Source of the DNA: an uncultured Treponema sp.
Lineage (GTDB): Bacteria; Spirochaetota; Spirochaetia; Treponematales; Treponemataceae
Assembly: GCA_947167345.1 (NCBI GenBank)
Contig: CAMVHR010000001.1
Span: forward strand, 62,001-126,000
DNA length: 64,000 nt
Direction: 5' to 3'
Positions within the stretch are counted from its first letter, which is position 1. Every line of letters begins with the position of its first letter. Below, piece by piece: positions 11,161-57,775 of the stretch. Both the position numbers and the translations under genes were made by a program. The notes beneath the pieces were generated by a model. It did no database searches. It saw only the letters and a program-made list of their open reading frames with translations, and was not told the origin of the DNA.

Positions 11161-13860
11161 TTAATCCAATTGCTTCCAATTTTCTTCCTTAAAAATATCA
11201 TCATGAACGGAAAACCAATGACCATCGCTTGTGTCGAAGGTTGTTCCGTTATTTTTAACCACATCAAAATGATGTGATGAAGTTATAATTTGCGGATGGA
11301 GACTCTTTTCGTCATTACTTATAAGTTTGCCTGTAAAAGGATTTATCGGATTTTCTATTATATCTTTAACGGCAAGTGTTGGCACATCTGCATTTGTCAT
11401 AAATTCGTTAGAAACAGAAAATTCTGTAGTTCCAAAATCTTTTACCATCAATAGAGGATTATAAGCCTCAACATCAATAAGTGGATTTTTCATTAACATA
11501 TAGTCAAATTGCCCAAGCATATATCCATGATCTGCAACAAGAATTATGCGGGTATTATCATACACTCCATTTTCACGCATAAAGTCAAACCATTTTCCCA
11601 AAGCCATTAATGATGCGACATTTACATGATAAGATTGGGCTTGAATATCTTCTCTATCCATTTCTATATGCCCATCAGCTGCGGTTTTGAAATTTGAATT
11701 ATCTATTTTTTCAGCAAGAATATAATCAGGTAATTGTAAAAATACAGGCTCATGAGCAGCTTCATTAGAAATAGAAATAAAATAATTCCCAAAATCTTCA
11801 TTTACTGCAGTAACTTTTTTCAATAAAGTAATAACAGAGTATGCCTTAATAAATCTTTCAGGATATATTCTTCTCAAAGACAAGAAATATTCCCCATCAT
11901 CATAGAGCGTTTCTGAAACTAGCAATGGTAAAACTTTAAAAATACTATAGACAAAAAAATTTCTTCTATAAACCACTTCTCTTGATTCATCAAAATACAA
12001 TAAAGAATCATTCCGCAAAATTCCATTCAAGCGATGAGCATGAACATTAGGAATATCATCAAATATAGAAATATCAGGTATCCATTTATATCCAGCATAA
12101 GGCGGATCACATATTGTAACATCATAATTATTGTTGCTGAAAATTAAAGGCATCAGTTTGAGGGCTTCATTATGTTTATCAACAAGAAGTTCTTTGTCTC
12201 GTTTGTTTATTTCTGTCACAGTATACTCATAGCCACCGAAGAGAGCAGGACTTCCTGTATTAGTATGACATCCATAAGAAAGAGTGTTGGGATAATATGT
12301 AAATCCTGCAAACTGTTTTTTTAGCTCTGGTTTTTCTTCAAAAATATAAGGAATATACCCGTTAATTGCACGATCAAGCATAATCACTAATACATTTTTT
12401 CCTTTTTTGCTAAACGTAAATAAAGGCTTTTCAAAAGATTTGTTTTGTAAGTCTTTTATGTAATCCATATCATTTAAAAGTCTCTGAGCCTTAAAAACAT
12501 GAGATAAAGAAAGAATCCCTGCACATATAAAAAGAACAAAGCAAGCCATTGATACGATTTTCTTAAATTTAAAGATAAAAATCATAATTACAGATAATCC
12601 AGCAACAACGGCAAGATTTATGAGTTTTGCAGAATTTGAAAATGCAAGCTCTTTTTCATAAATAAAATATTGCGACAGAACTCCCAAATTCTTTCCGAAA
12701 CACATATAGTTCATAAGAAATACACTAGAAGCAATCCACAGTGTCATATCTAATACGGAACGTCTGTTTTTTGGAATCATGTGTCTTATTATTCCTGCCC
12801 ATAAAATGAAGAAACCTGCCGCATAACATGTTGAATTAATCAGATATAAAAGCGGATTTTTATAATTCTGCAAGTCAACGAATTCTGCGGGAGAACTTGC
12901 TATTACAGCAGATGGAATTAATATTCCTGTAAGTATGGTAAGGAACATTCCTTCCAGCAAAAACAAAATCTTTGAAGAATTATTTTGCATTTTTACTATA
13001 GGAAAAATGATACCTTTTTGATTTTTCATATAATATATAATCAAAGGAATAAGCATTGTAATTTCAAATAAAACCATTACAACCAGTTTTTTACGAGAAT
13101 TAAGGATTCCGCTCATAATAACGCTTGTAAACAGCAAAGAGCCTAGAACTGCACAAAGTATGGCTGCAACCTTATGAGGATTTCTCAGTTTATAAAAGAT
13201 ATTTTTCAAAAGAGAAAAAATGTTGTTGCATGTCCAATACACAACTAAACCAGAAGGCGAATTATACAGTAATATTAGAAAAATCAAAGACATGCCGTAG
13301 GTTTGAATTTTAGATTTCAATGGGAATCCTTTCAGATAAACAGCAGAGGAAATACAATTTATAATAGTCATTAATACTGGCAATATATTCAGAGAGTATG
13401 AGCCTATATGGACAAGTTCATCTGGTGTTCCTAAATCTTTTATAAATCCAAATGATGCACCTTTTAAAACTTCTAGATGTGAGAGAAAATGATATGCTGC
13501 AATAAAAAAAGGAATTTCAAGTAAAAGCGAAATGGAACCGTTCAATGCCTGAAGGGGTGAATAACCATTTTCTCGCCAGTAGGTCTGCAACATCATGAAC
13601 CTTTCATCACCTTTAAATGTTTTTTTTATGAGGGCTGTCCAGTGTGAAAGTTTTTTCTGCAGGTCCCGTTCTTTCTGCTGTACTGCGTCTGCACGTCGAT
13701 ATAATGGAAGTGTCAGTAGGCTTATTGCTATGCTAACACCTATTACGGCAAGGCCTTGGTTTGTTTCATGCTGACCAAGTATACGGAACATAGCCTCAAA
13801 AACAATTTCAACTACAAGTTCTATTGGTGAAATGATTATGTTGTATAAAATTGCTGACAT
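11161..13860 (-). CDS. YidC/Oxa1 domain fused to a sulfatase-superfamily transferase
   Basis: An 899-residue membrane protein with two parts. Residues 1 to about 230 are a YidC/Oxa1-type domain: an N-terminal membrane helix, the LTLPLYRRADAVQQKERDLQ segment, the hairpin ending YWRENGYSPLQALNGSISLL, LLEIPFFIAAYHFLSHL, and SPSGLVVYWTCNNIFSLL. Several more membrane helices follow, to about residue 480. From about 490 there is an extracytoplasmic sulfatase/alkaline-phosphatase-type domain: VLVIMLDRAINGYIP, a probable nucleophile threonine in CHTNTGSPALFGG, ISNEAAHEPVF and ILVADHGYMLGQFD. LtaS and lipid A phosphoethanolamine transferases have the same fold and move phospho-groups onto envelope polymers. 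A GAAGGAGA ribosome-binding site fits the start. The upstream gene is a CDP-glycerol glycerophosphotransferase homologue, so a role in building or decorating a surface polymer is inferred. Nothing at the joint suggests a frameshift or misjoin. Confidence 0.85.
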   Translation of the reverse strand: MSAILYNIIISPIELVVEIVFEAMFRILGQHETNQGLAVIGVSIAISLLTLPLYRRADAVQQKERDLQKKLSHWTALIKKTFKGDERFMMLQTYWRENGYSPLQALNGSISLLLEIPFFIAAYHFLSHLEVLKGASFGFIKDLGTPDELVHIGSYSLNILPVLMTIINCISSAVYLKGFPLKSKIQTYGMSLIFLILLYNSPSGLVVYWTCNNIFSLLKNIFYKLRNPHKVAAILCAVLGSLLFTSVIMSGILNSRKKLVVMVLFEITMLIPLIIYYMKNQKGIIFPIVKMQNNSSKILFLLEGMFLTILTGILIPSAVIASSPAEFVDLQNYKNPLLYLINSTCYAAGFFILWAGIIRHMIPKNRRSVLDMTLWIASSVFLMNYMCFGKNLGVLSQYFIYEKELAFSNSAKLINLAVVAGLSVIMIFIFKFKKIVSMACFVLFICAGILSLSHVFKAQRLLNDMDYIKDLQNKSFEKPLFTFSKKGKNVLVIMLDRAINGYIPYIFEEKPELKKQFAGFTYYPNTLSYGCHTNTGSPALFGGYEYTVTEINKRDKELLVDKHNEALKLMPLIFSNNNYDVTICDPPYAGYKWIPDISIFDDIPNVHAHRLNGILRNDSLLYFDESREVVYRRNFFVYSIFKVLPLLVSETLYDDGEYFLSLRRIYPERFIKAYSVITLLKKVTAVNEDFGNYFISISNEAAHEPVFLQLPDYILAEKIDNSNFKTAADGHIEMDREDIQAQSYHVNVASLMALGKWFDFMRENGVYDNTRIILVADHGYMLGQFDYMLMKNPLIDVEAYNPLLMVKDFGTTEFSVSNEFMTNADVPTLAVKDIIENPINPFTGKLISNDEKSLHPQIITSSHHFDVVKNNGTTFDTSDGHWFSVHDDIFKEENWKQLD

Positions 13861-13896: not shown

Positions 13897-15135
13897 TCAT
13901 TTTTTATTCTGCAAGACTCTTCTTTTTTCAATTAAATAATCTGCTGTAAGTTTTGCACTTTCACCGCAATGCATCCAACTTGATTTTTTTATTTCCTTGA
14001 CTCTTTCTGCCAAAGATTTATCTGTTAAAGCTTTGGCAATAATATTTTTCATGTCTGAAAACTGTTTTTCTTCAAGCGGTATTCCAATTTCTGGAAGAAT
14101 GCTGAATGTCCATAAAGGTTCTTTTATCCATGCTGCATCATAGGGGGCAGGATTAAATTTTGTATCTGCATATATAACAGGTTTTCCAAAAACAAATGCA
14201 TAATCAAATATGATTCCTGAAAAATCTGTGATAATTAAGTCTGCTGTATTAAGGATTTGAAAATTATCATCGTCTTTATTCCATTTTAAATTTTCATTCT
14301 CTGGATAGATATTTTGTAATTCCTCCATAAGTTCTTTTTCTGCTGTAAAAGACTGTGGATGTGGACGTATGATAATGTTATAGCCTGTATCAATAAGACA
14401 CTTTATAATTTTTTTACCATACTTAGAAAGAATTCCACTCGCTCCCCAAGATGGTGCTAAAAGTATTGTTTTTGCATTTTGTACAGATTTTCTGCTGTTG
14501 AAATTTTCAAGTTTATCCTGTAATGAATCCATGTAGGTACAGCCGACAATAGAAACTTCTTTTTTTGACAAATTTCGTAATTCTTCGATTTTACGAATTT
14601 GATTTGCTTGATATTCACCAGAGCATAATATTGCATCATAAAAATCAAGACCAAACATTTTGTAAGTGGTTATGTCATTGATCATGTGAACTATATGTAC
14701 ATACCACTCTACATTTTTACTTCTCTTCCATTGATACACATCCAGTCCAGGTGTTGTTGAAAGTACAATTCCGGCATTCATCATATTCAGTTTTGCGAAA
14801 GCTTTGTTTCCTTCGCCTATAAACTCACACTTTACATGCTCGTATTTTTCCTGTAATGCAGGATCATCATGTGAGGCTGTCCAGTAAACCAAATCAACCT
14901 TGCGATTTTCAAATTCATCGCAAATCGGTTTGAATACATTCCAATAGCGTTTGTGGTCACTGAAAATGACATACGGAATTTTTGTATCAGATATTTTTGC
15001 AGCATGCCCACCCGAAATTGCAAATTTAAGACGCAATATAAGCTTTTGCCCGAAAAAAACAATGGTACTTACAACTCCTATTAAGATTGAAAAAAGCATA
15101 CTGCCCGTTCCAGGGTCTATATACAGAAAAAACAT
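13897..15135 (-). CDS. CDP-glycerol:glycerophosphotransferase-like protein
   Basis: A 412-residue protein. Residues 1-36 hold a membrane anchor preceded by YIDPGTGSM, a short motif I recall at the N-terminus of several polysaccharide-related proteins. The rest resembles TagB/TagF glycerophosphotransferases: SDHKRYWNVFKPICDEFENR, DVYQWKRSKNVEWYVHIVH, then LLAPSWGASG, IIIRPHPQS and TADLIITDFSGIIFDYAFVF. Enzymes of this group move glycerol phosphate or other polyol phosphates from CDP donors to a lipid-linked acceptor at the cytoplasmic face. It precedes the YidC-sulfatase fusion by 36 bases in the same direction, which implies a shared transcript. The donor and polymer are unknown, and spirochaetes are not known for classical teichoic acids. 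Confidence 0.75.
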   Translation of the reverse strand: MFFLYIDPGTGSMLFSILIGVVSTIVFFGQKLILRLKFAISGGHAAKISDTKIPYVIFSDHKRYWNVFKPICDEFENRKVDLVYWTASHDDPALQEKYEHVKCEFIGEGNKAFAKLNMMNAGIVLSTTPGLDVYQWKRSKNVEWYVHIVHMINDITTYKMFGLDFYDAILCSGEYQANQIRKIEELRNLSKKEVSIVGCTYMDSLQDKLENFNSRKSVQNAKTILLAPSWGASGILSKYGKKIIKCLIDTGYNIIIRPHPQSFTAEKELMEELQNIYPENENLKWNKDDDNFQILNTADLIITDFSGIIFDYAFVFGKPVIYADTKFNPAPYDAAWIKEPLWTFSILPEIGIPLEEKQFSDMKNIIAKALTDKSLAERVKEIKKSSWMHCGESAKLTADYLIEKRRVLQNKK

Positions 15136-15651: not shown

Positions 15652-16515
15652 TCATTTTAATTGTGAGTCTGTCACTGAATGGAAAAAATCTTTTCCCCAA
15701 AGTGTAAGTTTAGAACTGTTTGCTATAAAAGGTATGACATCCTGTTTCGCACTTTCAAAGTCTACACTTTCAAACCGCTCATAAAGAAGCTGTTTTAATT
15801 TTTGCATTGTCAACTCATCTTCACTCTGCCATTTTCCGGTTTGCGCAAGGCGATTTTTTAAGTGAAAAAGATTTACTTTTGATCCACGTGAAAGATACCA
15901 AAGATAATCATAAAAGTCTCTTCCTTTTACTCTGTTTTTCCAAGAACGACAAAGAACTGCATGAATTTTTCCTGCAAAAAGTGAACTTTCATTATACATC
16001 TGTACGGCATAAGGACTTGGTAGCAGTGCATATTTTGTTTCGTATGTAGCTCCAGGTGGAGGATCTGTATCAATTTCAAATTTAATTTTTATAAGATCAG
16101 AACTTGATACACCAAGAATTCTTTCATCTGTCGGTATTATTCTTAAAAGGTGTGTTAAAGTTCCGCCCTTTATAAAAGCTGACTGAATGTTAGTTTCCTT
16201 TGATTTTTCTTTTCGCTCGACTGTAAGCTCAAAACCATTTGCCAAAAGTTCCTCGCGCAGATAAGAGAAATAAATATCAATCTGAAAACTTTCATCTTTT
16301 AAAAGAAGTGAAAAATCCATATCCTCGGAAAAGCGATCCAGCCCATAAAAAATTCTAAGAGCGGTGCCACCATAAAAAGCTGCTTTCTTAAAAAATCCCC
16401 CTCTGGAAAGACCGCACAGTGCAACTTCTTGTATTACTTCTTTTAATGCATTTTTGTATTCTATTGTATTTTTACATTTATATTTTTCAATCATCTGTTG
16501 TACTGCTGTTGTCAT
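15652..16515 (-). CDS. abiEii: AbiEii-type nucleotidyltransferase toxin
   Basis: A 287-residue DNA-polymerase-beta-fold nucleotidyltransferase of the AbiEii/MenT toxin family. The active site is intact: GGTAL (residues 49-53) followed by RFSEDMD (61-67) with its paired aspartates, a third acidic position in KIKFEIDTDPP, and the basic KNRVKGRDFYDYLWYL helix. Characterised relatives stop growth by transferring nucleotides, in some cases to the tRNA acceptor end. The gene overlaps the antitoxin gene by four bases (ATGA), as expected for a type IV toxin-antitoxin operon, which can also give abortive infection against phage. Full length and apparently active. Confidence 0.88.
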   Translation of the reverse strand: MTTAVQQMIEKYKCKNTIEYKNALKEVIQEVALCGLSRGGFFKKAAFYGGTALRIFYGLDRFSEDMDFSLLLKDESFQIDIYFSYLREELLANGFELTVERKEKSKETNIQSAFIKGGTLTHLLRIIPTDERILGVSSSDLIKIKFEIDTDPPPGATYETKYALLPSPYAVQMYNESSLFAGKIHAVLCRSWKNRVKGRDFYDYLWYLSRGSKVNLFHLKNRLAQTGKWQSEDELTMQKLKQLLYERFESVDFESAKQDVIPFIANSSKLTLWGKDFFHSVTDSQLK

Positions 16516-17120
16516 GCTTTGTTCTCCATATCTTTTGTATGCTTTTGTATTAAAGTTTGTAATAGTTTTAAATTTGTTGATTTATATAAGCCCGCTAACT
16601 CTAATAGAATTGTAGAATTTAGAGAATAAAAGTCATCTTCCTCTATCCTGAGATTATCGAACATATATTTGCAGAGCTGTTTTTCTGATGCTAGAGGCTT
16701 TTCTCTGTAAAGTGTGTCACACAAGCATTTTTCTTTTCCTGCAATTAAAAAGTTCCTGTTGCCATCAGGCATAATATAAACTTCGTAAGGATATGCTGTC
16801 TTTGGGACATCTCTATATAAAAATAATCCAAAACTTGTATTAAAAGTTTTTGTCTTATTCTTTCCAAATGTAGCAGACATAACCGTTACAACTTTTTCTG
16901 GAATTAAACTCCAGTAGGATAGTGCCGTCTCGAATGAAATATATGATGGACCATAGATTGCAGAAGATAGAAGAAAAGGAGATGTGTCTCTATCTGTTTC
17001 ATAAAGCCCCTTTACCACTTTGAAAAGTTTTCCTTCCTTTTCCAATGATAAAAGCTTATTTTTAGGAGCTTTGTATTCAACTTGTAATTCTTGAATTAGC
17101 TGAAAAGAAACTTTTAACAC
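16512..17120 (-). CDS. abiEi: AbiEi-type antitoxin and transcriptional repressor
   Basis: A 202-residue protein with the features of AbiEi: an N-terminal winged helix-turn-helix (LIQELQVEYKAPKNKLLSLE, EGKLFKVVKGLYETD) and a C-terminal domain with ISFETALSYWSLIPE, KCLCDTLYREKP and TNLKLLQTLIQKH. AbiEi proteins counter the AbiEii toxin and repress their operon by binding inverted repeats. The start is GTG at 17120, placed eight bases after a GGAGG ribosome-binding site. A perfect 12-base inverted repeat flanks its -10 box, which fits autoregulation. Confidence 0.82.
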   Translation of the reverse strand: MLKVSFQLIQELQVEYKAPKNKLLSLEKEGKLFKVVKGLYETDRDTSPFLLSSAIYGPSYISFETALSYWSLIPEKVVTVMSATFGKNKTKTFNTSFGLFLYRDVPKTAYPYEVYIMPDGNRNFLIAGKEKCLCDTLYREKPLASEKQLCKYMFDNLRIEEDDFYSLNSTILLELAGLYKSTNLKLLQTLIQKHTKDMENKA

Positions 17121-42042: not shown

Positions 42043-44469
42043 ATGTATCAGTCCCGTATTTATCTTGAAGTTCGTGTTCTTCTGTCAGCAGTTCCAGGTG
42101 TTTTTACTGCTGTTGAATTAAATGATGGAAAAAAAGGCATTTTAAATGCAAAAGCAGATTTTTTGCGCAGAAATAATTCTCCTGTACAGCTGGCAAAAGT
42201 TGATGTTCAGCCGTCTGTACTGCATAAAGTTGCCCTGTTTGTAAATGCAGTTGGAGGCACAATGTTGAGCTCCGGCAAACTGGAGCATCTGACAGGGGCT
42301 TTGCCAGAACCTCCTGATGACAAAAATTTTACCGGTTATTCTATACGTGTTGCAGAAGGTGGAAAACTTGATATCATATATCACCAGAAGCAAAAGACTA
42401 TTAATATAGAAGAAATCCGTATAGAAGAAGATCGTGGCAAGCTTACTAGAACTGCTGGTAAGAAGGCTAAAATGGATTGGACATTTGCCGGTTGCCCTGT
42501 AATGCGCATACGTACGTCAAATGTTTTTGAGCTTGGTGGTGAAGCTGAAGTTTTTCTTCAGGAACTTGAAACTCTTTTGGCATATTTACGATTTACAACT
42601 GGCGATGTTCAGGAAAACGGCATAAGGTGTAATGCCTATGTTTCTTTGTGCGAATATCCTGAAGAACCTCTATATTCTGTTAAATTACGCAACTTGAATT
42701 CGTTTAATTTTGTCCGCAAGGCAATCGACAGTGAGCTTTCCAGACAGGAATCGGTTCTTTCTTCTGGTGAGAAAGTTTCTGCAGAAAGCCGTCTGTGGAA
42801 TGAGCAGCTTAATGCGACAGAATTCTGGCAGCAGCGGAAGCCTGATTTGGTACGCTTTGCTTTGGTAAATCCTCCTGTCAATGTTGCAATTTCTGATGCA
42901 GTCGCTTTTGAAGCTTCCGAAGTGGAACTGCCTGAAAAAAGACGTGAGCGCCTGCGTTCATCTTACGGACTGTCTCGCTTGCGCACTATGTTTCTGTGTG
43001 CCGAAAAAGACAGGGCTGATTATTTTGAGTCTGCCGTTAAGCATGGTGCTCCGGCAATGCTTGCCGCTCACTGGCTTGCAAGCGAAGTTATGAAAATCCT
43101 TAATAGAAGCGGAAAGTCTATAAGGCAATGCAAGCTTACTGCGGAAAAATTTGCCCGTGTTCTTGTTCTGCTTGATGAAGGCAAAATTCATAGCGGTATG
43201 GCAAAGGATATTATGCAGGCTGTTGCACTTGACGGCAGTGATGTTGATGAAATAATAAAAAAGCAAGGTCTGGTTCTTTTATCTACAAAAGAAGAGCTGG
43301 AACCTGTAATTGACAGTGTTCTTGCTGAATACCCTAAGAGCGTAGCTTCTTTAAAAGAAGGCAATATGGCTCCTCTTGAGTTCCTGACCGGTTGTGTCAT
43401 GAAAAAAACGGAAGGAAAGGCTGTTCCTACAGTAGTAAAGGCTCTGCTAAAAGAAAAACTTTCTATAAGCATTGTCTACGTTCTTACTATGGGCGGTTCA
43501 ATTACAGCTGAAAAACATGATGATGGCACAGTTGTTGCAGGAAGTTCTCAAAGCATTATGCAGAGTATTATGCCTTTGCTTGAAGGTGACAATGGAAATT
43601 TCCCGGTGCAGGTTGTTTCTGTTTGCGATATGCTCAGCGAAGAAACTGAGCCTAAAGATTGGGCAAAGCTTATTGCCGTCATAAAGGAAAAGATTGAGAG
43701 CGGTACTGCAAACGGCATTGTTGTGACACATGGTACTGATACCCTTTCTTATACGGCGGCATTGCTGTTCTGGCTTTTTTCTGCATCAGATGTACCTGTC
43801 GTGCTTACGGCTTCATCTTCCCTTTCCAAAGCAGAAGCTGGAGCAAATTTGAACCTTGCAATTCAAACTGCCCGTGAACGTAAGAACGGAGTCTGCGTTG
43901 TTTATGGAAACAAAATTCTTCCTGCATTGAATTTGAAATATGTAAGCAATGATACTGATGGGTTCATTAACTGGAATATGAAAAAGCCTGTATTCTTTGC
44001 TAATACTGTTTTGAGCCAGCAGTTTCTGTCTGTTTCAATGCCTGAAACGGAAATAATGAGTTTTATCCTTAATGAAGCTGCTGAACGGCTTTCCGTCATA
44101 AGGCTTTATCCTGGTCTGCTCATGAACAGGCTTGAAAAGATGATAGGTGATGAATCTTCTATAGATACTGTAATATTGGAGCTGTATTCTTCTGGAACAG
44201 GAAACATGAAGAATAGCGACTATTCGCTAAAAACATTTTTGACGAAAGGCCGACAGCATGGCATTACATTCTGCTGTACCTCTCAGCAGGAAAGTTTTGT
44301 TGATTTTTCGGAATATTCAACGAGCGCACAGTTGTGGCAGGCCGGAACTGTGCCATTTGGCAATTTGACGACAGAATCTGTAACTGCATTGTATTTTGCA
44401 GCTTCTCTTATTGCCGATAATCATAACGAGCTTGATGAAATCATGGAAAGTTCCATAGAGTTGCTGTAG
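42043..44469 (+). CDS. Degenerate GatB-like domain fused to a type I asparaginase domain
   Basis: An 808-residue fusion. Residues 1 to about 470 follow GatB (aspartyl/glutamyl-tRNA amidotransferase subunit B) in order: IYLEVRVLL, GYSIRVAEGGKLDI, EEIRIEEDRGKL, DWTFAGCPVMRIRTSN, GIRCNAYVSLCEYP, KLRNLNSFNFVRKAIDSEL, RLWNEQLNATEFWQ, ELPEKRRERLRSSYGLS and a YqeY-like tail (AEKFARVLVLLDEGKIHSGM). The catalytic GLEVH motif is altered to YLEVR and the cysteine zinc site of GatB is absent. Residues 475-808 are an asparaginase/GatD-type domain: LTMGGSITAE (residues 481-490) and THGTDTLSY with Thr565 and Asp566. The first catalytic threonine of GGT is replaced by serine (Ser486). In archaea, GatE and GatD carry these two functions as separate chains. 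Ammonia release for tRNA amidation is one possibility; loss of the GatB motifs makes it doubtful. Confidence 0.85.
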   Translation: MYQSRIYLEVRVLLSAVPGVFTAVELNDGKKGILNAKADFLRRNNSPVQLAKVDVQPSVLHKVALFVNAVGGTMLSSGKLEHLTGALPEPPDDKNFTGYSIRVAEGGKLDIIYHQKQKTINIEEIRIEEDRGKLTRTAGKKAKMDWTFAGCPVMRIRTSNVFELGGEAEVFLQELETLLAYLRFTTGDVQENGIRCNAYVSLCEYPEEPLYSVKLRNLNSFNFVRKAIDSELSRQESVLSSGEKVSAESRLWNEQLNATEFWQQRKPDLVRFALVNPPVNVAISDAVAFEASEVELPEKRRERLRSSYGLSRLRTMFLCAEKDRADYFESAVKHGAPAMLAAHWLASEVMKILNRSGKSIRQCKLTAEKFARVLVLLDEGKIHSGMAKDIMQAVALDGSDVDEIIKKQGLVLLSTKEELEPVIDSVLAEYPKSVASLKEGNMAPLEFLTGCVMKKTEGKAVPTVVKALLKEKLSISIVYVLTMGGSITAEKHDDGTVVAGSSQSIMQSIMPLLEGDNGNFPVQVVSVCDMLSEETEPKDWAKLIAVIKEKIESGTANGIVVTHGTDTLSYTAALLFWLFSASDVPVVLTASSSLSKAEAGANLNLAIQTARERKNGVCVVYGNKILPALNLKYVSNDTDGFINWNMKKPVFFANTVLSQQFLSVSMPETEIMSFILNEAAERLSVIRLYPGLLMNRLEKMIGDESSIDTVILELYSSGTGNMKNSDYSLKTFLTKGRQHGITFCCTSQQESFVDFSEYSTSAQLWQAGTVPFGNLTTESVTALYFAASLIADNHNELDEIMESSIELL

Positions 44470-50433: not shown

Positions 50434-51999
50434 TCATTTTTGTGGAAAATTTGCTACAATATATGTATGTTCATGGCTTTGGAACTTCTTTTTGCTGAAT
50501 TTGAACATGAGTGTGTCTGAGTCCGTTTTTCCTGCCTTTATGATGAACATCCCGTAGGGACGAATCTCATGCCTTGCGTTGAAGGCATAAAAAACAGGTC
50601 CGTCATATTTATATCCATAGTCATCATAATCAGATTTATGCAGACTCCACAGATAGGAACTGCTTTTAGTTCTGCATGCACAATCTATGGAATATGCCTT
50701 TAAAAGCTGTTGCATGGATTTACTTGTAGCATTTGTAATGGAATTTATGTCCGTGTACTGATTTGTGGCAAGCTTTCTAATTAGAGCTGTTCCACCATAG
50801 TTCCTGTACAGCCATGTTCCGAACGCATAGTTTGCCGCATACGAAAGCATTGCGTGATAGTGCGAACATCCCCTGTATTCAAGGCCGCATTCGGCGTATC
50901 CTGAGTTGAAAAGTGCAAGCCTTGAATTCAAGTTAGCATTTTCTTCATCCTCATTTATTATTTCCTCGCACAATAATGACATCATTTCGCTGAATGCATC
51001 TGCATCAGGAAGGTCATGTATCAAAACCTTTTGGTTGTAACTTATCATGTGCTGGAATTCATGTGCAAGAGTTGATATGCATACATCGATATCGGCTTCT
51101 GCCCACTGGGAGTCAATGTATATATATTTGCCTTCATTTGAGTAGTTTAGTATGCCATGTTCATAATCATTTTCACTTGGAAAATAATCCTTTGAATAAA
51201 AATATCCGACTACTCCGTTATTTTCCCTGTTTATGTCATATACGACGATATTAACTTTTGTTCCTGTTCCACTCATGTATTCAAGTCTTTTCGGTTCAAA
51301 GAATTTTCCATTGTAGTTGCAAAACATAAAATCAGATTCTTTTCCGAACAGAAACCTTATTTTTTCATACATGGCATCAAATGCCACGCTCATTTTTTGT
51401 GCAGCTTTCATTATTTTTTCTGGACTGCCGTCTCCGTCTACTGCCCAGACATAACAGAACTTGCCTTTTGAAGCCAATGTGGCAGATTTTTTTTTGTAAA
51501 TCGTCATGTCTGAATTTATGTCTACAAAAATATCCTTTCTGCACCCTTCGTCATATTCTTTTTGTATGATTACTTTGCTTTTTTTCTTGTTTGATTCTTT
51601 GTGCGCATCATAGGAATTTAGCTTTTCGGTTTTTCTGAATATTTTATGCGGACCAAATCCTGATGATGGAGTTGTTAAAGACTGTCTGCTTTGAGTTTTT
51701 TCAAACTCTTCTTTTGGATTTTTTACATTTAGTGAGATACCTTCTGCTTCTAAAACATATATGGCAGATTCTTTTGGAATAACCTTGTCTGAAGTATTTG
51801 TTTTTGTTATGTATATTTCAGTTCCTATAGGAACATTTTGAATTACAAGTCTGTCTGTGCCGTCTGAAAGCTCATATACGGCACTTTCATTTAGACGCTC
51901 AAAGTCTGAAAAGTCAATAATCCTGCCTTCTGCACTTTTTCTTGTACAGCATGAGGTGAGTTCTGCCAGTGCAAAAAACAGAATTAAAAGATTTTTCAT
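50434..51999 (-). CDS. Lipoprotein metallopeptidase (HExxH, M30-like)
   Basis: A 521-residue lipoprotein (signal FFALAELTSC, lipobox LTS-C). The zinc motif HEFQH is at residues 313-317 within STLAHEFQHMISYNQK. A downstream acidic region (DADAFSEMMSLLCEEIINED) could hold the third zinc ligand. Overall it resembles M30-type (hyicolysin) peptidases, though this assignment is by memory and partial. It starts one base after the alpha-2-macroglobulin gene, so a protease and a protease-trapping protein are encoded together. Substrate unknown. Confidence 0.7.
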   Translation of the reverse strand: MKNLLILFFALAELTSCCTRKSAEGRIIDFSDFERLNESAVYELSDGTDRLVIQNVPIGTEIYITKTNTSDKVIPKESAIYVLEAEGISLNVKNPKEEFEKTQSRQSLTTPSSGFGPHKIFRKTEKLNSYDAHKESNKKKSKVIIQKEYDEGCRKDIFVDINSDMTIYKKKSATLASKGKFCYVWAVDGDGSPEKIMKAAQKMSVAFDAMYEKIRFLFGKESDFMFCNYNGKFFEPKRLEYMSGTGTKVNIVVYDINRENNGVVGYFYSKDYFPSENDYEHGILNYSNEGKYIYIDSQWAEADIDVCISTLAHEFQHMISYNQKVLIHDLPDADAFSEMMSLLCEEIINEDEENANLNSRLALFNSGYAECGLEYRGCSHYHAMLSYAANYAFGTWLYRNYGGTALIRKLATNQYTDINSITNATSKSMQQLLKAYSIDCACRTKSSSYLWSLHKSDYDDYGYKYDGPVFYAFNARHEIRPYGMFIIKAGKTDSDTLMFKFSKKKFQSHEHTYIVANFPQK

Positions 52000-52000
52000 T

Positions 52001-55000
52001 CTATTTTATAGTCCAGACTTTGCCGTCTGTCCTTCCAAAAATTTCTTCCTCGTACATGCATTCAGCTGTTGCACACGGAGTTTTGTATTCGCCTTTGCGA
52101 ACTGCCCTGAACTGGAATTCTACCTGCTGCACTCCTGCAGGAAAGTAATCCCAGAAGAACTGTGTTTCTGCATCGTATATGCCTTTGTAAGAAAGACCCC
52201 TTGTTGCTTCTGTAAGGTTTTCAATAGTACCAGTTGTTACAAATGCACTATTCAGTATTTCGCATCCTGCTGGAACAGGAGCGCGGACGGCAACGTATTC
52301 TGCCCTTATTCGTGAAGATACTATTACTTTTTCGCGGTAAATGTTTCCTGCTGTAAGTTCACTTTCTTTTACAACTTTTCCTGTCTTTGCGTCAGTAATC
52401 TCGGTGTAAATGCATAGCCCCTCGTCTCTTGCTGTCTGTTTTTCTGCTGGAAGGGCATATTTCATTGATGCTGTGTAGAAAAGTGTACCCTTGCCTGACT
52501 TAGTAAATGTTACATCAAGATTTCTATCTTTTGGAGTTACTGTTGTTTCTACAGGCTTTGCCGCAACTCCATTAAAGGTCCCTCTCAATGTCGATGTGCC
52601 ATTTAAAAGTACATCTGCTGTAAAGTTCAGCTTTTCAAGATTATTGCTTTTGATATAGTCGTTTAGTGCAATAAGGACTCTGCTTGTGACTGCTGTTGAC
52701 TGCCAGCGTCCATTGTGTGCTTTTTGCATTTTCAAAAGTTCATAGACAATGTGCTGGTTAGTGCTGTCTTTTGCGTTAAGGCGTGTAAGAAGCTGCAGCA
52801 GCAATGCGTATCGTTCTGAGTCATCATTAAAGAAACACCAGTAATGTTTTTTGTACTTCTGAGAAATGTCAATTCCTCGGCTTGTCATTCTGGTGTATGA
52901 AAGAATTTTCTGATACAAGTCTTCTGCCTGTTTTCTGCTGCCTTTTGCAAGGTATGCAAGGGCTGCAAGCTCTAGAGTTTCAACATCCGCACCTTCACTT
53001 TCTGTAATTAAAGCCAATGAATTGTCCTTTATGTCAGCACCAAGCATAGCCGCGCCGTATAATGCATACGATGCCCTGTATAAAGTCCAAGGTTGCTTTG
53101 ATTCGTTCAAAGCCTTTTCTGCTTCCTTTACAAGATAAGCTGCCAGTGCTTTTTCATCTGTCTTTCCTGTCGGAATTCCGTTCTGTTTTGCAAGGGCTAG
53201 AATTTCAGCAATCCTCATTGATACAAACGGACTGCTTTCTTTTCCTCCCTTCCAGTAAGGAAAGCCTCCGTCTACCCTCTGTACCGGAGCCCAGCTGTAA
53301 ATTTCATGCTCTGCAACACCATTTGCAGATTTTACTTCACTGTTTAAGCCGAATACATCTATGTAGTCTCCGAATGCTACAAGAGGAAGTACGGCGGCAG
53401 AACGCTGTTCCATGCAGCCGTACGGATAGTGGAATACATAACTTACGGCTTCTCTGAGTACCCCGAGTCGGGTAGGATCAAGCTGAACATATACACTATA
53501 ACGTGAGTCCTCTGCATCATCTGGAATGATAATCTTTTCTGTTACAGAGTCTTCTGTACTTCCTGTTGTCGTTACTGTTTCATAAATGTAAGGCTTTTCT
53601 ATCTGGAGCGGTAGCAGAATCTTTTCGTTTATGTTACTGCCTGTAACTTTGAATTCTACAGTAATCCAGCCTTGCTTTATAGCTTTTATTGAGAACATGA
53701 GAGGCTGCGTTTTGTTTGCCGCAACCTTGATTTTTTGCAAATTCTTTTTATCTGCCACCAAGGCTGAGCCTGGAATCTTTTGTATGTCATCGCTGTTCTG
53801 CGTATAGTTTACGCCTTCATATACGCTAATCTCTACATTTACATTTTGGGCTTTGCCTGTAAGATTTGAAATGACTACTCCGAGTTCTGCCTTATCATCA
53901 GGGCGGAGCATTCTTGGCAGTGCAGTCCGCACTGAAATCGGTTCGCATACGGAGATTTCTTCTTCTGTCTTGCCGAATGCATTACTGTCATCGATGGCAA
54001 CTGCCGTTATTCTATATGAAGTGAGCGAGTCGGGGAGTGTAACGCTGCATGTAGCCTTTCCGCTCTTATCCGTAATTATGTATGGTTCAAAGGCGGCTGT
54101 AGACGCAAAGTTTGAACGTATTTTCATGCCGTCTGAGCCAGCTTCTTCATCAGAAGCAGCCATCATTGGAGCGGCTTCCATTTTATATACTCTTGTAGCA
54201 CCTTTTGCCTTGTTGCTTGTAGCAAAAAGTGCATCTTCCGCTGCACTTTCCATTTCGACTTGTTCCTGCATTATCAGAAGAGAGCGGGAGTCACCTCCCA
54301 GCGTGCGGTTGTAGAACCTGTTTCTGTCATAGAAATATGAAAGTGGATCCTCTACGTGATAACCAATAAGGTCAAGAATTCCCCTGTCTACTGCCATGAG
54401 TGTGATTGCGGCATTTTTAGCAGGTTTGCCGTTCTGTGTCGCTGTAATTGTAAATTTTGCCTTGTCTCCAGGCTGGTAGCTTTCTTTGTCAGGTTTTATG
54501 GATACGTCTATTTTTTTTGTGGCAGCATTTATATTTAAAGCCGTCACTCCGTAATAGCTTTTTGGTGCATCATTCCCAGTCCGTACTGAATATGTTGAGA
54601 CTGAAACATATATTACCGGTACGTAAGATTCTTCAATTTTTACGTCGATTATATTGGAAGGTTCTGTAAGAGTTACTGCTTTTTCTGAAAGTACACCCTC
54701 CCTTTCTATCGTGATAAGGTACGTTCCCTTTGGAAGTTCTGTTTGTGTGAGTATGTGTGCAGTATCTCCAGCATTGTATTCTTCCTTGTCAGGAGTAAGC
54801 CTTACTTGCTGGCTGTCGTTTGTGTCATGCACAAACCATCCGCTTCCTGTAACATAAAAACTTCTTTCTGTAATGACAGGATTCCCCTTTGAGTCATTGC
54901 AGGTCATCTTTAAAAGATATGCACCACTTTCTTTTGGCTTTACAGTTATTTCGGCAGGCTTTGCAGAAGACGGAAGTTTTACAGTCCTTGATTCTTCTAC

Positions 55001-57775
55001 AGTCAGTTGTTTTTCGTATCGTACTGAAACATATCCTGAAGGCTCTAATGTCTGGATTCTTTTCCAGTTTTCGCGTATAAGTTCTGCCTTTACTTCACCT
55101 GATTTTGGAAGTGCGTTCTTTGCGGGAAAATCTTCATCAGGTGTAATGCACACATAATCAAACTTTATGCTGTCACCTTTTTTTGCAAATCCCTTTACAT
55201 TTTTTTCGCTTCCTATGCCTATGTAGAATTGGGATGGATGGACAATGGCTGATGAACTTGTGCTTATTGCTTGGTTTCCACTGTCTGTAACTTGTGTCTC
55301 TACTGTATATCTTATAGGAATGCCATTGTTTTCTATACTGCCGGTTGTCTGTGATGTAGATGCCTTTCCGTCTGAGTCAAGAAGTCCGCTTTCAGTTCCA
55401 AGATATCCTTGGGTATATTGATGTGTGAGAGAGCCAAACCTCATGGACTTGTATTCCTTTTTCTGCGGAATAAATGAAGTTCCCTCGTATCTCCATTGAG
55501 AGCTGTAGTTGCTGTCGGCAAGGCTTCCTCCGCCAAGATATCTTGCGCTTATGAGTGCTGAAAGACTGTCACCGTAGATATATGTGCTGTCTTCAATGGA
55601 AGAATTTGCTTCAAAACGCAGCTTTTCAAAAAACTGTACGTTTACAGGAATGCTTTCGGATGTTTTTTGACCGTCACAGTTTCGTGTGTATACAATATTA
55701 TAATCCCCAGGCTTTATGTCCTCTGGTAATTTAAATGTTCCCCATGCACTTCCATGCTTGGAAAGTTTTCCTTTGTTTGTTCCATAAATCTGCCTGCTTC
55801 CCCTGTTATAACCTGTAAGCTCGATGGTAAAGTTTGATTCTGTTTCTGGAACAGCATTGTATGTGCCCTTTTTAAGGTTACGGTCTATTATTATGTAGGA
55901 AACAGTTTCCCCAGGCTTATAAAGTTTTCTGTCTGTAAACAAAAATGCAACCATCTGATTTTTTAATGTTGTTTCAAACTCTGGTCGCGGATTGCTGTAT
56001 AGATATTTTAAAGGTCTGCCCCAGTCATTGCTTGCATAAAGAATTCTGTCATTGTCTGTTTTTGCTTCAAAGAACATGCTTCTTGCTGTTGTAAGATTTT
56101 TTATCTGTTCTTCTGTAAAGTCTATTTCCGCAATGCCACTTGCATTCGTAGTGGCACTTGCAATGACAGAATGGCTCTGTACGAGACATTCTGCGTATGT
56201 CAGCGATTTGTCAATGAACATGACGCTTACTTTTGCATTTGCTACAGGTTTGCCTGTCTTCATGCTGGAAACGAGGACAACGGCCTTGTTGTATCCGTAT
56301 CGTGCTGTAACAGCAAGGTCTGTAACCTGTATGATCTGTTCATTTTCTGCAGTAGCTGTTTCAGTTTTGTATTCTTTTGATTTCCAATCCCTGTATCTGC
56401 ATTCATAGGGAATGTTCGCCTTAAAACGTACTGCACCCCTGTATTCCCCGTCAGAAATCGTAAGATATGGACGCAAGTCTATTTTTTCTGATGTAATTTT
56501 GTTCTTTTCAATCTTGTCAACATCAATTGTTATTGTCTTGGATGATGCTCCATTCTTTGAACCTGTCGCATCTGTAAGTGGCTCTATTGTATAATAAGCA
56601 GGAGCCTTTATGTTTTGGTAGGTGAATGATATGAACGGTGCAAACTGAGATTCAAGCGTCATAAAACCGCTGTTCTTAAATCTTACAAAACTCTTTGCGT
56701 CTGGGGCTGTTACCTTGAATGTGTAATCACTTGTAAGTTTTCTTCCATATATATCACTAAAATCTTTGTTTATGGTAATGCTGTATGTTTGCTCATAAGT
56801 GACAGGCAGTGAATGTATTGTAAGAGAATGTCCGCTTATCTTTATGTTTTCTTTTGTTATTTTGTAGCTTTTTGCTGAACCTGTATCACATTCTATGTGT
56901 TTGGCAAGTTCTTCTTCATTCCCATCTTTTAGTTCTGTGCTGAAATATACGTATACGGGCAGAAAGATGTCTTCACTGTACCATGACGGCTGTGTGTCAG
57001 TGTCGGTTACTTTGAACTTTACGATTGTGTGAAAGCTTTCACTTGTTTCTTTTTGTGAGGCATGGCAGTCTTTGTCGGCTAGTGCTCCTTTTTGCAGCGT
57101 TACTTTTATGTCTGTGTCTTCTGGAAGATCTTCCTGTACTGTAAGATGCACAATGTTTTTGTCTTCCTGTAAAGCTGTAAAATTAAAGTTTTTTGAATGA
57201 CCTGAATTTTCTGCCTGTACGGTAAGAAAATCCTTTACAACAGCTGCATTTACGGGTGCGTTAAAAAATACTGCTATGTCCTTTGCCAGCTGTACGGGTA
57301 CATTGTTTCTAGTTACGTACTGTCCGTTCTTTTCGTGTCCGTATCCTGGATGAACGGATGTTATTTTCAAGTCTTCAGTGTGGAATGTATATTCTGTCTT
57401 TCCCTGTATCTTATTGCCTTTGAGGGAAGTTGTGTTTGGGTTTATTTTTATGGTATATGTTTTTTGCGGAATTGCTTCTTCGTCACTTTCAAAGCTTAAT
57501 ATACTTGTGCCATACCAGCGGTACACTCCCTTCAGCTTTGGTTCTATGCTGACTATGGAAGATGTCGCGGTCGGATTCCCAAGAGCCTTAAGTTCTGTTA
57601 CCGGCTGTGAAAAGTGAATTTGTATTGCAGGATACTTTACGCTTGCAGGAAGTTCCCCTTGTGGAGTAACGTTCAGCACCTTGAATTCTGAATCTTCACC
57701 ATTTTGTGCATGAATTGCTGTTGTAAAAACGCTTGCTGCCATAATCATAAAAAATGTAAGTATACCCTTGTGCAT
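52001..57775 (-). CDS. Bacterial alpha-2-macroglobulin
   Basis: A 1924-residue exported protein with a signal peptide (MHKGILTFFMIMAASVFTTA, cleavage near IHA-QN). Multiple macroglobulin-like beta domains fill the first 1150 residues (for example YTIKINPNTTSLKGNKIQGK, FLFTDRKLYKPGETVSYI). The thioester motif is intact: CMEQ at residues 1454-1457 in YPYGCMEQRSAAVLPL. The complement-like helical domain follows (RVDGGFPYWKGGKESSPFVS). No lipobox is seen. Such proteins trap attacking proteases in the periplasm. The usual partner PbpC is not next to it; instead a HEFQH lipoprotein follows in the same operon. An AAGGA ribosome-binding site precedes the ATG. Confidence 0.93.
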   Translation of the reverse strand: MHKGILTFFMIMAASVFTTAIHAQNGEDSEFKVLNVTPQGELPASVKYPAIQIHFSQPVTELKALGNPTATSSIVSIEPKLKGVYRWYGTSILSFESDEEAIPQKTYTIKINPNTTSLKGNKIQGKTEYTFHTEDLKITSVHPGYGHEKNGQYVTRNNVPVQLAKDIAVFFNAPVNAAVVKDFLTVQAENSGHSKNFNFTALQEDKNIVHLTVQEDLPEDTDIKVTLQKGALADKDCHASQKETSESFHTIVKFKVTDTDTQPSWYSEDIFLPVYVYFSTELKDGNEEELAKHIECDTGSAKSYKITKENIKISGHSLTIHSLPVTYEQTYSITINKDFSDIYGRKLTSDYTFKVTAPDAKSFVRFKNSGFMTLESQFAPFISFTYQNIKAPAYYTIEPLTDATGSKNGASSKTITIDVDKIEKNKITSEKIDLRPYLTISDGEYRGAVRFKANIPYECRYRDWKSKEYKTETATAENEQIIQVTDLAVTARYGYNKAVVLVSSMKTGKPVANAKVSVMFIDKSLTYAECLVQSHSVIASATTNASGIAEIDFTEEQIKNLTTARSMFFEAKTDNDRILYASNDWGRPLKYLYSNPRPEFETTLKNQMVAFLFTDRKLYKPGETVSYIIIDRNLKKGTYNAVPETESNFTIELTGYNRGSRQIYGTNKGKLSKHGSAWGTFKLPEDIKPGDYNIVYTRNCDGQKTSESIPVNVQFFEKLRFEANSSIEDSTYIYGDSLSALISARYLGGGSLADSNYSSQWRYEGTSFIPQKKEYKSMRFGSLTHQYTQGYLGTESGLLDSDGKASTSQTTGSIENNGIPIRYTVETQVTDSGNQAISTSSSAIVHPSQFYIGIGSEKNVKGFAKKGDSIKFDYVCITPDEDFPAKNALPKSGEVKAELIRENWKRIQTLEPSGYVSVRYEKQLTVEESRTVKLPSSAKPAEITVKPKESGAYLLKMTCNDSKGNPVITERSFYVTGSGWFVHDTNDSQQVRLTPDKEEYNAGDTAHILTQTELPKGTYLITIEREGVLSEKAVTLTEPSNIIDVKIEESYVPVIYVSVSTYSVRTGNDAPKSYYGVTALNINAATKKIDVSIKPDKESYQPGDKAKFTITATQNGKPAKNAAITLMAVDRGILDLIGYHVEDPLSYFYDRNRFYNRTLGGDSRSLLIMQEQVEMESAAEDALFATSNKAKGATRVYKMEAAPMMAASDEEAGSDGMKIRSNFASTAAFEPYIITDKSGKATCSVTLPDSLTSYRITAVAIDDSNAFGKTEEEISVCEPISVRTALPRMLRPDDKAELGVVISNLTGKAQNVNVEISVYEGVNYTQNSDDIQKIPGSALVADKKNLQKIKVAANKTQPLMFSIKAIKQGWITVEFKVTGSNINEKILLPLQIEKPYIYETVTTTGSTEDSVTEKIIIPDDAEDSRYSVYVQLDPTRLGVLREAVSYVFHYPYGCMEQRSAAVLPLVAFGDYIDVFGLNSEVKSANGVAEHEIYSWAPVQRVDGGFPYWKGGKESSPFVSMRIAEILALAKQNGIPTGKTDEKALAAYLVKEAEKALNESKQPWTLYRASYALYGAAMLGADIKDNSLALITESEGADVETLELAALAYLAKGSRKQAEDLYQKILSYTRMTSRGIDISQKYKKHYWCFFNDDSERYALLLQLLTRLNAKDSTNQHIVYELLKMQKAHNGRWQSTAVTSRVLIALNDYIKSNNLEKLNFTADVLLNGTSTLRGTFNGVAAKPVETTVTPKDRNLDVTFTKSGKGTLFYTASMKYALPAEKQTARDEGLCIYTEITDAKTGKVVKESELTAGNIYREKVIVSSRIRAEYVAVRAPVPAGCEILNSAFVTTGTIENLTEATRGLSYKGIYDAETQFFWDYFPAGVQQVEFQFRAVRKGEYKTPCATAECMYEEEIFGRTDGKVWTIK

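Follow-up and report, generated by a model that had tools for sequence, protein, structure and literature searches.

The known enzymes of the PF04464 family use CDP-glycerol or CDP-ribitol, and the phosphoethanolamine transferases EptA, EptC and MCR move an amino-phosphate headgroup. In a setting of the lic or pnt type, LicD and a flippase are the late components to be expected. LtaS takes glycerol phosphate from phosphatidylglycerol with a catalytic Thr and Mn (PMC4192460). E. coli YidC, Oxa1 and Get1 are described as scrambling lipids in liposomes (PMC10491306). In a 2019 paper, the tailoring of phosphonates after C-P bond formation is said to 'remain enigmatic' (PMC6697681).

The window analysed here, a stretch of 64,000 nucleotides from an uncultured Treponema sp. 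(assembly GCA_947167345.1), carries a gene in which elements of these systems are joined, and next to it a gene for a TagF-like transferase. The two may together attach small groups, linked through phosphate or phosphonate, to glycans of the cell surface by lipid loading, crossing and transfer, a reading to which a probability of roughly 0.4 is given. Candidate groups are phosphocholine, 2-aminoethylphosphonate and, probably, phosphoethanolamine.

The fused reading frame

The fusion gene (11161..13860; this and all other features of the fusion and its partner are on the minus strand) is an open reading frame of 899 aa with an ATG start and no internal stops. It encodes a YidC/Oxa1 domain, seven helices and an LtaS/EptA-type transferase domain, as judged from the frame, from profile matches and from a predicted structure of the whole protein (pLDDT 89.1, pTM 0.82). 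The initial annotation had described one frame joining a YidC-like part, extra helices and an outer part of sulfatase fold, and all three kinds of evidence confirm it. Its remark that the two functions are normally separate holds for the parent families and fails for the present fusion family. The fusion is real. A chance or misassembled join is rejected: the same single frame is seen in each of 42 loci sampled from the phylum, and an unbroken match is given by 79 of the 80 loci taken from a genome collection.

With five core helices for the YidC part and seven for the middle region, the model and helix prediction would put the outer domain outside, on the extracytoplasmic side. The middle region (residues 227-480; 12421..13182) joins the YidC part to the outer domain by its seven predicted helices at 228-463. 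Compared alone with the PDB, it matched nothing down to the threshold of E 0.001 (best Z 6.8, within noise). Residues 283-899 of the whole model align to the PbgA/YejM-type structure 6xlp at Z 20.4, but with an rmsd of 15 and with the middle region alone unmatched.

The YidC-derived domain

Residues 1-226 (13183..13860) constitute a YidC/Oxa1-superfamily domain. Over residues 36-223 the Pfam profile 60KD_IMP scores 83.9 bits (cut-off 35) and the NCBIfam profile yidC_oxa1_cterm 84.6 (cut-off 84.3). In Foldseek the model matches E. coli YidC (6al2) with E 1.7e-5 and an rmsd of 3.8 over 218 columns, and the YidC fold assigned earlier to residues 1 to about 230 is thereby borne out. This part is the most conserved of the fusion; the mean frequency of the top residue in two alignments is 0.66 and 0.72, compared with 0.41 and 0.44 in the middle region and 0.50 and 0.61 in the outer domain.

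Fold and Pfam family are common to the fusion domain and the YidC/Oxa1 insertases, but a basic groove residue is not. It had been thought that a basic groove segment, LYRRADAVQQKERDLQ, is kept and that the insertase groove is retained as in YidC. The segment instead opens the first cytoplasmic loop, and it is Ser47 (13720..13722) that aligns with R366, the groove arginine of the E. coli protein. Among 112 fusion rows, at least one of them a duplicate (L007 and L066 are one contig), position 47 is N in 77, S in 22 and T in 13, and is basic in none, whereas the alignment shows arginine in YidC2 and E. coli YidC. The contrast is real and the mark not universal, since K or R is found at the equivalent position in only 14 of 25 canonical YidC rows (from 31 loci, six of which a search with the YidC part of the window protein did not recover at E 1e-3). 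The fusion domain also has its own invariant residues in the 112-row alignment, e.g. Y54, Y100, F119, D147, T165 and N212.

Could the fusion have replaced the cell's insertase? This is rejected, as a separate canonical YidC was found in 37 of 40 genomes; the three without one (G390, G394 and G403) may be incomplete. The lack of a basic position 47, the domain's own invariant residues and its presence in addition to a canonical YidC, from which it also differs in being fused, argue for a membrane function that has been kept and an ordinary insertion activity left behind. Lipid scrambling by E. coli YidC (PMC10491306) makes a membrane-crossing role of this domain plausible. The initial annotation had imagined a membrane gate or flipping scaffold for a lipid-linked polymer; the gate is plausible on these grounds, and the polymer is not what the gene context points to, which is small amino-phosphate headgroups.

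The outer transferase domain

Residues 481-899 (11164..12420) form, by Foldseek and structure alignment, a putative extracytoplasmic domain of the alkaline-phosphatase superfamily. Pfam Sulfatase (PF00884) scores 17 bits on residues 641-786, under its cut-off of 25. The fold is clear all the same: structure alignment of residues from about 486 to 899 gives Z 19-21 with phosphonate monoester hydrolase, choline sulfatase, LtaP and LtaS. Asp496 (12373..12375) and Asp777-His778 (11527..11532) are likely metal ligands, Thr533 (12262..12264) is the likely nucleophile and His703 (11752..11754) a conserved active-site candidate, the nucleophile and metal ligands being placed by motif and order, not coordinates. 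These residues, and Lys807 as well, are invariant in 42/42 and 71/71 rows. Fold and invariant residues agree with the sulfatase-superfamily domain, with metal and nucleophile motifs, of the initial annotation. The formylglycine motif C/S-x-P/A-x-R is absent from the window protein and, at positions 520-550, from all 42 and all 71 rows. Given the Thr and Mn chemistry of LtaS (PMC4192460), the invariant residues and the missing formylglycine motif make transfer through Thr533 likely. The domain's putative place in the LtaS/EptA-type phosphotransferase class is well supported by the alignments and the model.

Resemblance to LtaS and LtaP extends to the order of membrane helices followed by an outer domain, to the Thr nucleophile and metal ligands and to the fold (Z 19-20). 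Unlike them, the fusion has a YidC domain in front, a TagF-like partner gene and another headgroup context, and its middle helices are without a PDB match at E 0.001. EptA, EptC and MCR have the outer-domain fold in common with the fusion (EptC 6a82, Z 18.9; MCR-1 is among the Foldseek matches), but the fusion carries YidC and showed no sequence match to them at the thresholds used. Does the outer domain occur without YidC? In 40 genomes, strong matches were all in long YidC-bearing frames, barring broken or truncated copies; one weak match (1.9e-4) is in a 492-aa frame of genome G386.

The TagF-like partner gene

A conserved neighbour lies 36 bp upstream of the fusion (13897..15135) and encodes a 412-aa TagF-like transferase. 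It matches PF04464 at 43 bits (cut-off 22.1) and begins with a conserved IDPGTGS membrane segment plus a hydrophobic stretch. Genes of this kind are seen in 106 of 122 fusion loci, and 97 of 112 full-length copies have a complete fusion on their own strand no more than 150 bp away, with the TagF-like gene first in 60 of these close pairs and the fusion first in 37. Choosing the longest ORF passed over the fusion in L081, L101, L119 and L137, four loci where a longer frame overlaps it.

Partner distances correlate with those of the YidC domain at r 0.82 and with those of the outer domain at r 0.71, with partial correlations of 0.48 (YidC), 0.31 (middle) and 0.13 (outer); the pairs compared are non-independent, and the YidC part is slower-evolving, which could raise its r. 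The closer agreement of the partner with the YidC part than with the outer domain is compatible with the partner being physically linked to the YidC part. Directly upstream of the pair, at 15652-17120 on the minus strand, are genes for an AbiEii-type toxin and an AbiEi-like antitoxin.

Headgroup-activation genes

Modules for headgroup activation are present in 53 of the 122 loci and absent from 69, the window locus included; 42 of the 122 are shorter than 18 kb, and at 18 kb or more the module is absent in 40 of 80. One type would make CMP-aminoethylphosphonate (PEP mutase, phosphonopyruvate decarboxylase and a PntC-like enzyme), another CDP-choline (choline kinase, a LicCA-like enzyme and an EamA transporter) and a third, by analogy, CDP-ethanolamine (an NTP transferase fused to a CobD-like enzyme). 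In whole genomes, PEP mutase genes are within 10 kb of a fusion in 21 of 34 cases, where at most 0.62 is expected by chance; for 12 of the 34, the nearest fusion is over 11 kb away or on a different contig. Choline kinase, searched in the genomes of 40 of the 80 collection loci, every one fusion-bearing, is within 10 kb of a fusion in 17 of 22 cases, and none of eight below-cut-off matches is near. From these counts, CMP-aminoethylphosphonate or CDP-choline modules accompany the fusion. The 30 kb examined at the window locus contain no headgroup module, but the genome's other fusion (L004) has a complete aminoethylphosphonate module, made up of PEP mutase, phosphonopyruvate decarboxylase and a fused, PntC-like enzyme.

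The activation enzymes adjoining the fusion are those of the lic and pnt pathways (LicA/B/C/D for phosphocholine; PntC for aminoethylphosphonate, PMC6697681). What differs is the late part. Among the 53 module loci the TagF-like gene is present in 52 and a LicD gene in 4, so that the TagF-like gene and the fusion appear in place of LicD and a flippase.

Is each fusion tied to one headgroup? On the fusion tree, drawn from the 91 of 122 loci with a TagF-fusion pair, 40 of them with a single headgroup label, modules change 13 times (mean of shuffles 17.6; minimum 2). The idea that every fusion clade is strictly specific for one headgroup is rejected on this count. As modules swap among near relatives, the pair is probably not bound to one headgroup, and may tolerate several or act on a shared carrier.

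Distribution and origin

Three genes of the YidC type are present in the window genome, one of them canonical (626 aa) and two of them fusions, that of the window and another on contig 35. Of 98 genomes of the genus, 74 have a fusion-grade match (best E of 6e-93 or lower), 22 a weak YidC-like match only and two none. In the wider phylum the fusion is found at full length in several families, some genomes having five to seven matching places. In the genome collection at least 577 relatives were confirmed, mostly in Clostridia and spirochaetes. The 80 loci kept from these are mostly from Lachnospiraceae and other Clostridia, with Treponema, Schwartzia (class Negativicutes), Coriobacteriales and Solobacterium also represented. 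The fusion is recurrent in many gut bacteria, next to genes for the activation of choline phosphate or aminoethylphosphonate.

How did the window copy originate? It is 42-47% identical to most of the 80 collection loci (63 and 51% to two rumen Treponema) and 30-40% identical to all but two of the fusions of its own phylum. The tree of 91 fusions has a branch (support 100) with the window copy on its clostridial side, and the second copy of the genome groups with other spirochaetes, a placement that suggests gain by lateral transfer. A tree of the YidC domain from 30 fusions and 25 canonical proteins is split between the two by one branch (100/100), the canonical branches being long. An apparent single origin of the fusion is the simplest reading of that split. 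A plasmid or phage gene is rejected: residues 230-899 gave no plasmid match, and the 10 records from a phage collection all match the YidC part alone.

Copy number varies widely. A tandem array in locus L086 (1-20817) holds six long fusion copies, 59-76% identical among themselves, and two genomes (G391 and G413) have about ten copies each. Short or broken copies stand beside intact ones in L191 (G151) and L213 (G084), as if the gene were often gained and lost.

Proposed role and other explanations

In the decoration proposed for the pair, the TagF-like enzyme would act at the inner face of the membrane, moving a headgroup from a CDP or CMP carrier onto a membrane lipid. Having given up ordinary insertion, the YidC-derived domain would let the headgroup of this lipid cross the membrane. 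Fold and invariant residues suggest that the headgroup would then be taken onto Thr533, with metal at Asp496, Asp777 and His778, and handed to a glycan in the manner of LtaS. Several observations weigh against this reading: the 69 of 122 loci, the window locus among them, that have no module; the 13 module changes between close relatives; the CDP-glycerol or CDP-ribitol used by the known PF04464 enzymes; and the 12 of 34 PEP mutase genes distant from fusions or on other contigs.

Some of these points would suit a polymer. The TagF-like enzyme would build a chain like a poly-alditol phosphate on a lipid, the YidC domain would export it and the outer domain extend or modify it, the headgroup modules being incidental. 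The partner's PF04464 membership, the LtaS/LtaP-like fold and the interchange of modules among near relatives are all in keeping with this, and about ten fusions in some genomes could mean a diversity of chain types. However, no gene for CDP-glycerol or CDP-ribitol synthesis is found among the annotated frequent neighbour clusters, choline kinase and PEP mutase being strongly linked instead, and a polymer is considered unlikely. It is more doubtful still that the YidC domain acts as a chaperone, which would only help to insert or hold helices of the transferase itself, or the membrane hairpin of its partner, and would move no lipid. A retained YidC fold, the partner's conserved N-terminus with its hydrophobic stretch and partner distances that follow the YidC domain most would all be explained, but position 47 is never basic in the 112 rows, the canonical YidC of 37 of the 40 genomes could serve, and other LtaS-type enzymes are not known to need a YidC-like domain. 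Least probable is a hydrolase, i.e. an outer domain that is a sulfatase or phosphodiesterase trimming surface groups. The fold is indeed common to sulfatases and phosphonate monoester hydrolases, with equal Z; against this, the aligned rows have an invariant Thr nucleophile and no formylglycine motif, and membrane anchoring and adjoining activation genes suit synthesis.

Under the preferred headgroup decoration, the TagF-like and fusion pair is a widespread, concrete candidate for the phosphonate tailoring steps mentioned above and for a LicD-free addition of phosphocholine. In titles, the starts of abstracts and open PubMed Central text, no description of a YidC-sulfatase fusion was found; the parent families are known, and, as far as that open text goes, their combination in one chain, together with the partner and the surrounding genes, is not in print. 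A more far-reaching idea, somewhat improbable as it stands, is a one-chain lipid scramblase-transferase, an Oxa1/YidC fold turned once from the insertion of proteins to a dedicated role in lipid-headgroup crossing, which with its TagF-like partner would supply the late phosphonate and phosphocholine tailoring of surfaces in gut Clostridia, Treponema and relatives. Were the crossing role true, it would be a natural case of an insertase fold in lipid transport, and lipid scrambling by insertases would become testable with a physiological substrate.

Other genes of the window

Two further loci of the window are worth mention. An 808-aa frame at 42043-44469 (plus strand) has GatB_N and GatB_Yqey domains joined to an asparaginase domain and resembles a fused GatE-GatD pair. 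At 50437-57775 (minus strand) a bacterial alpha-2-macroglobulin of 1924 aa adjoins an M30-type peptidase.
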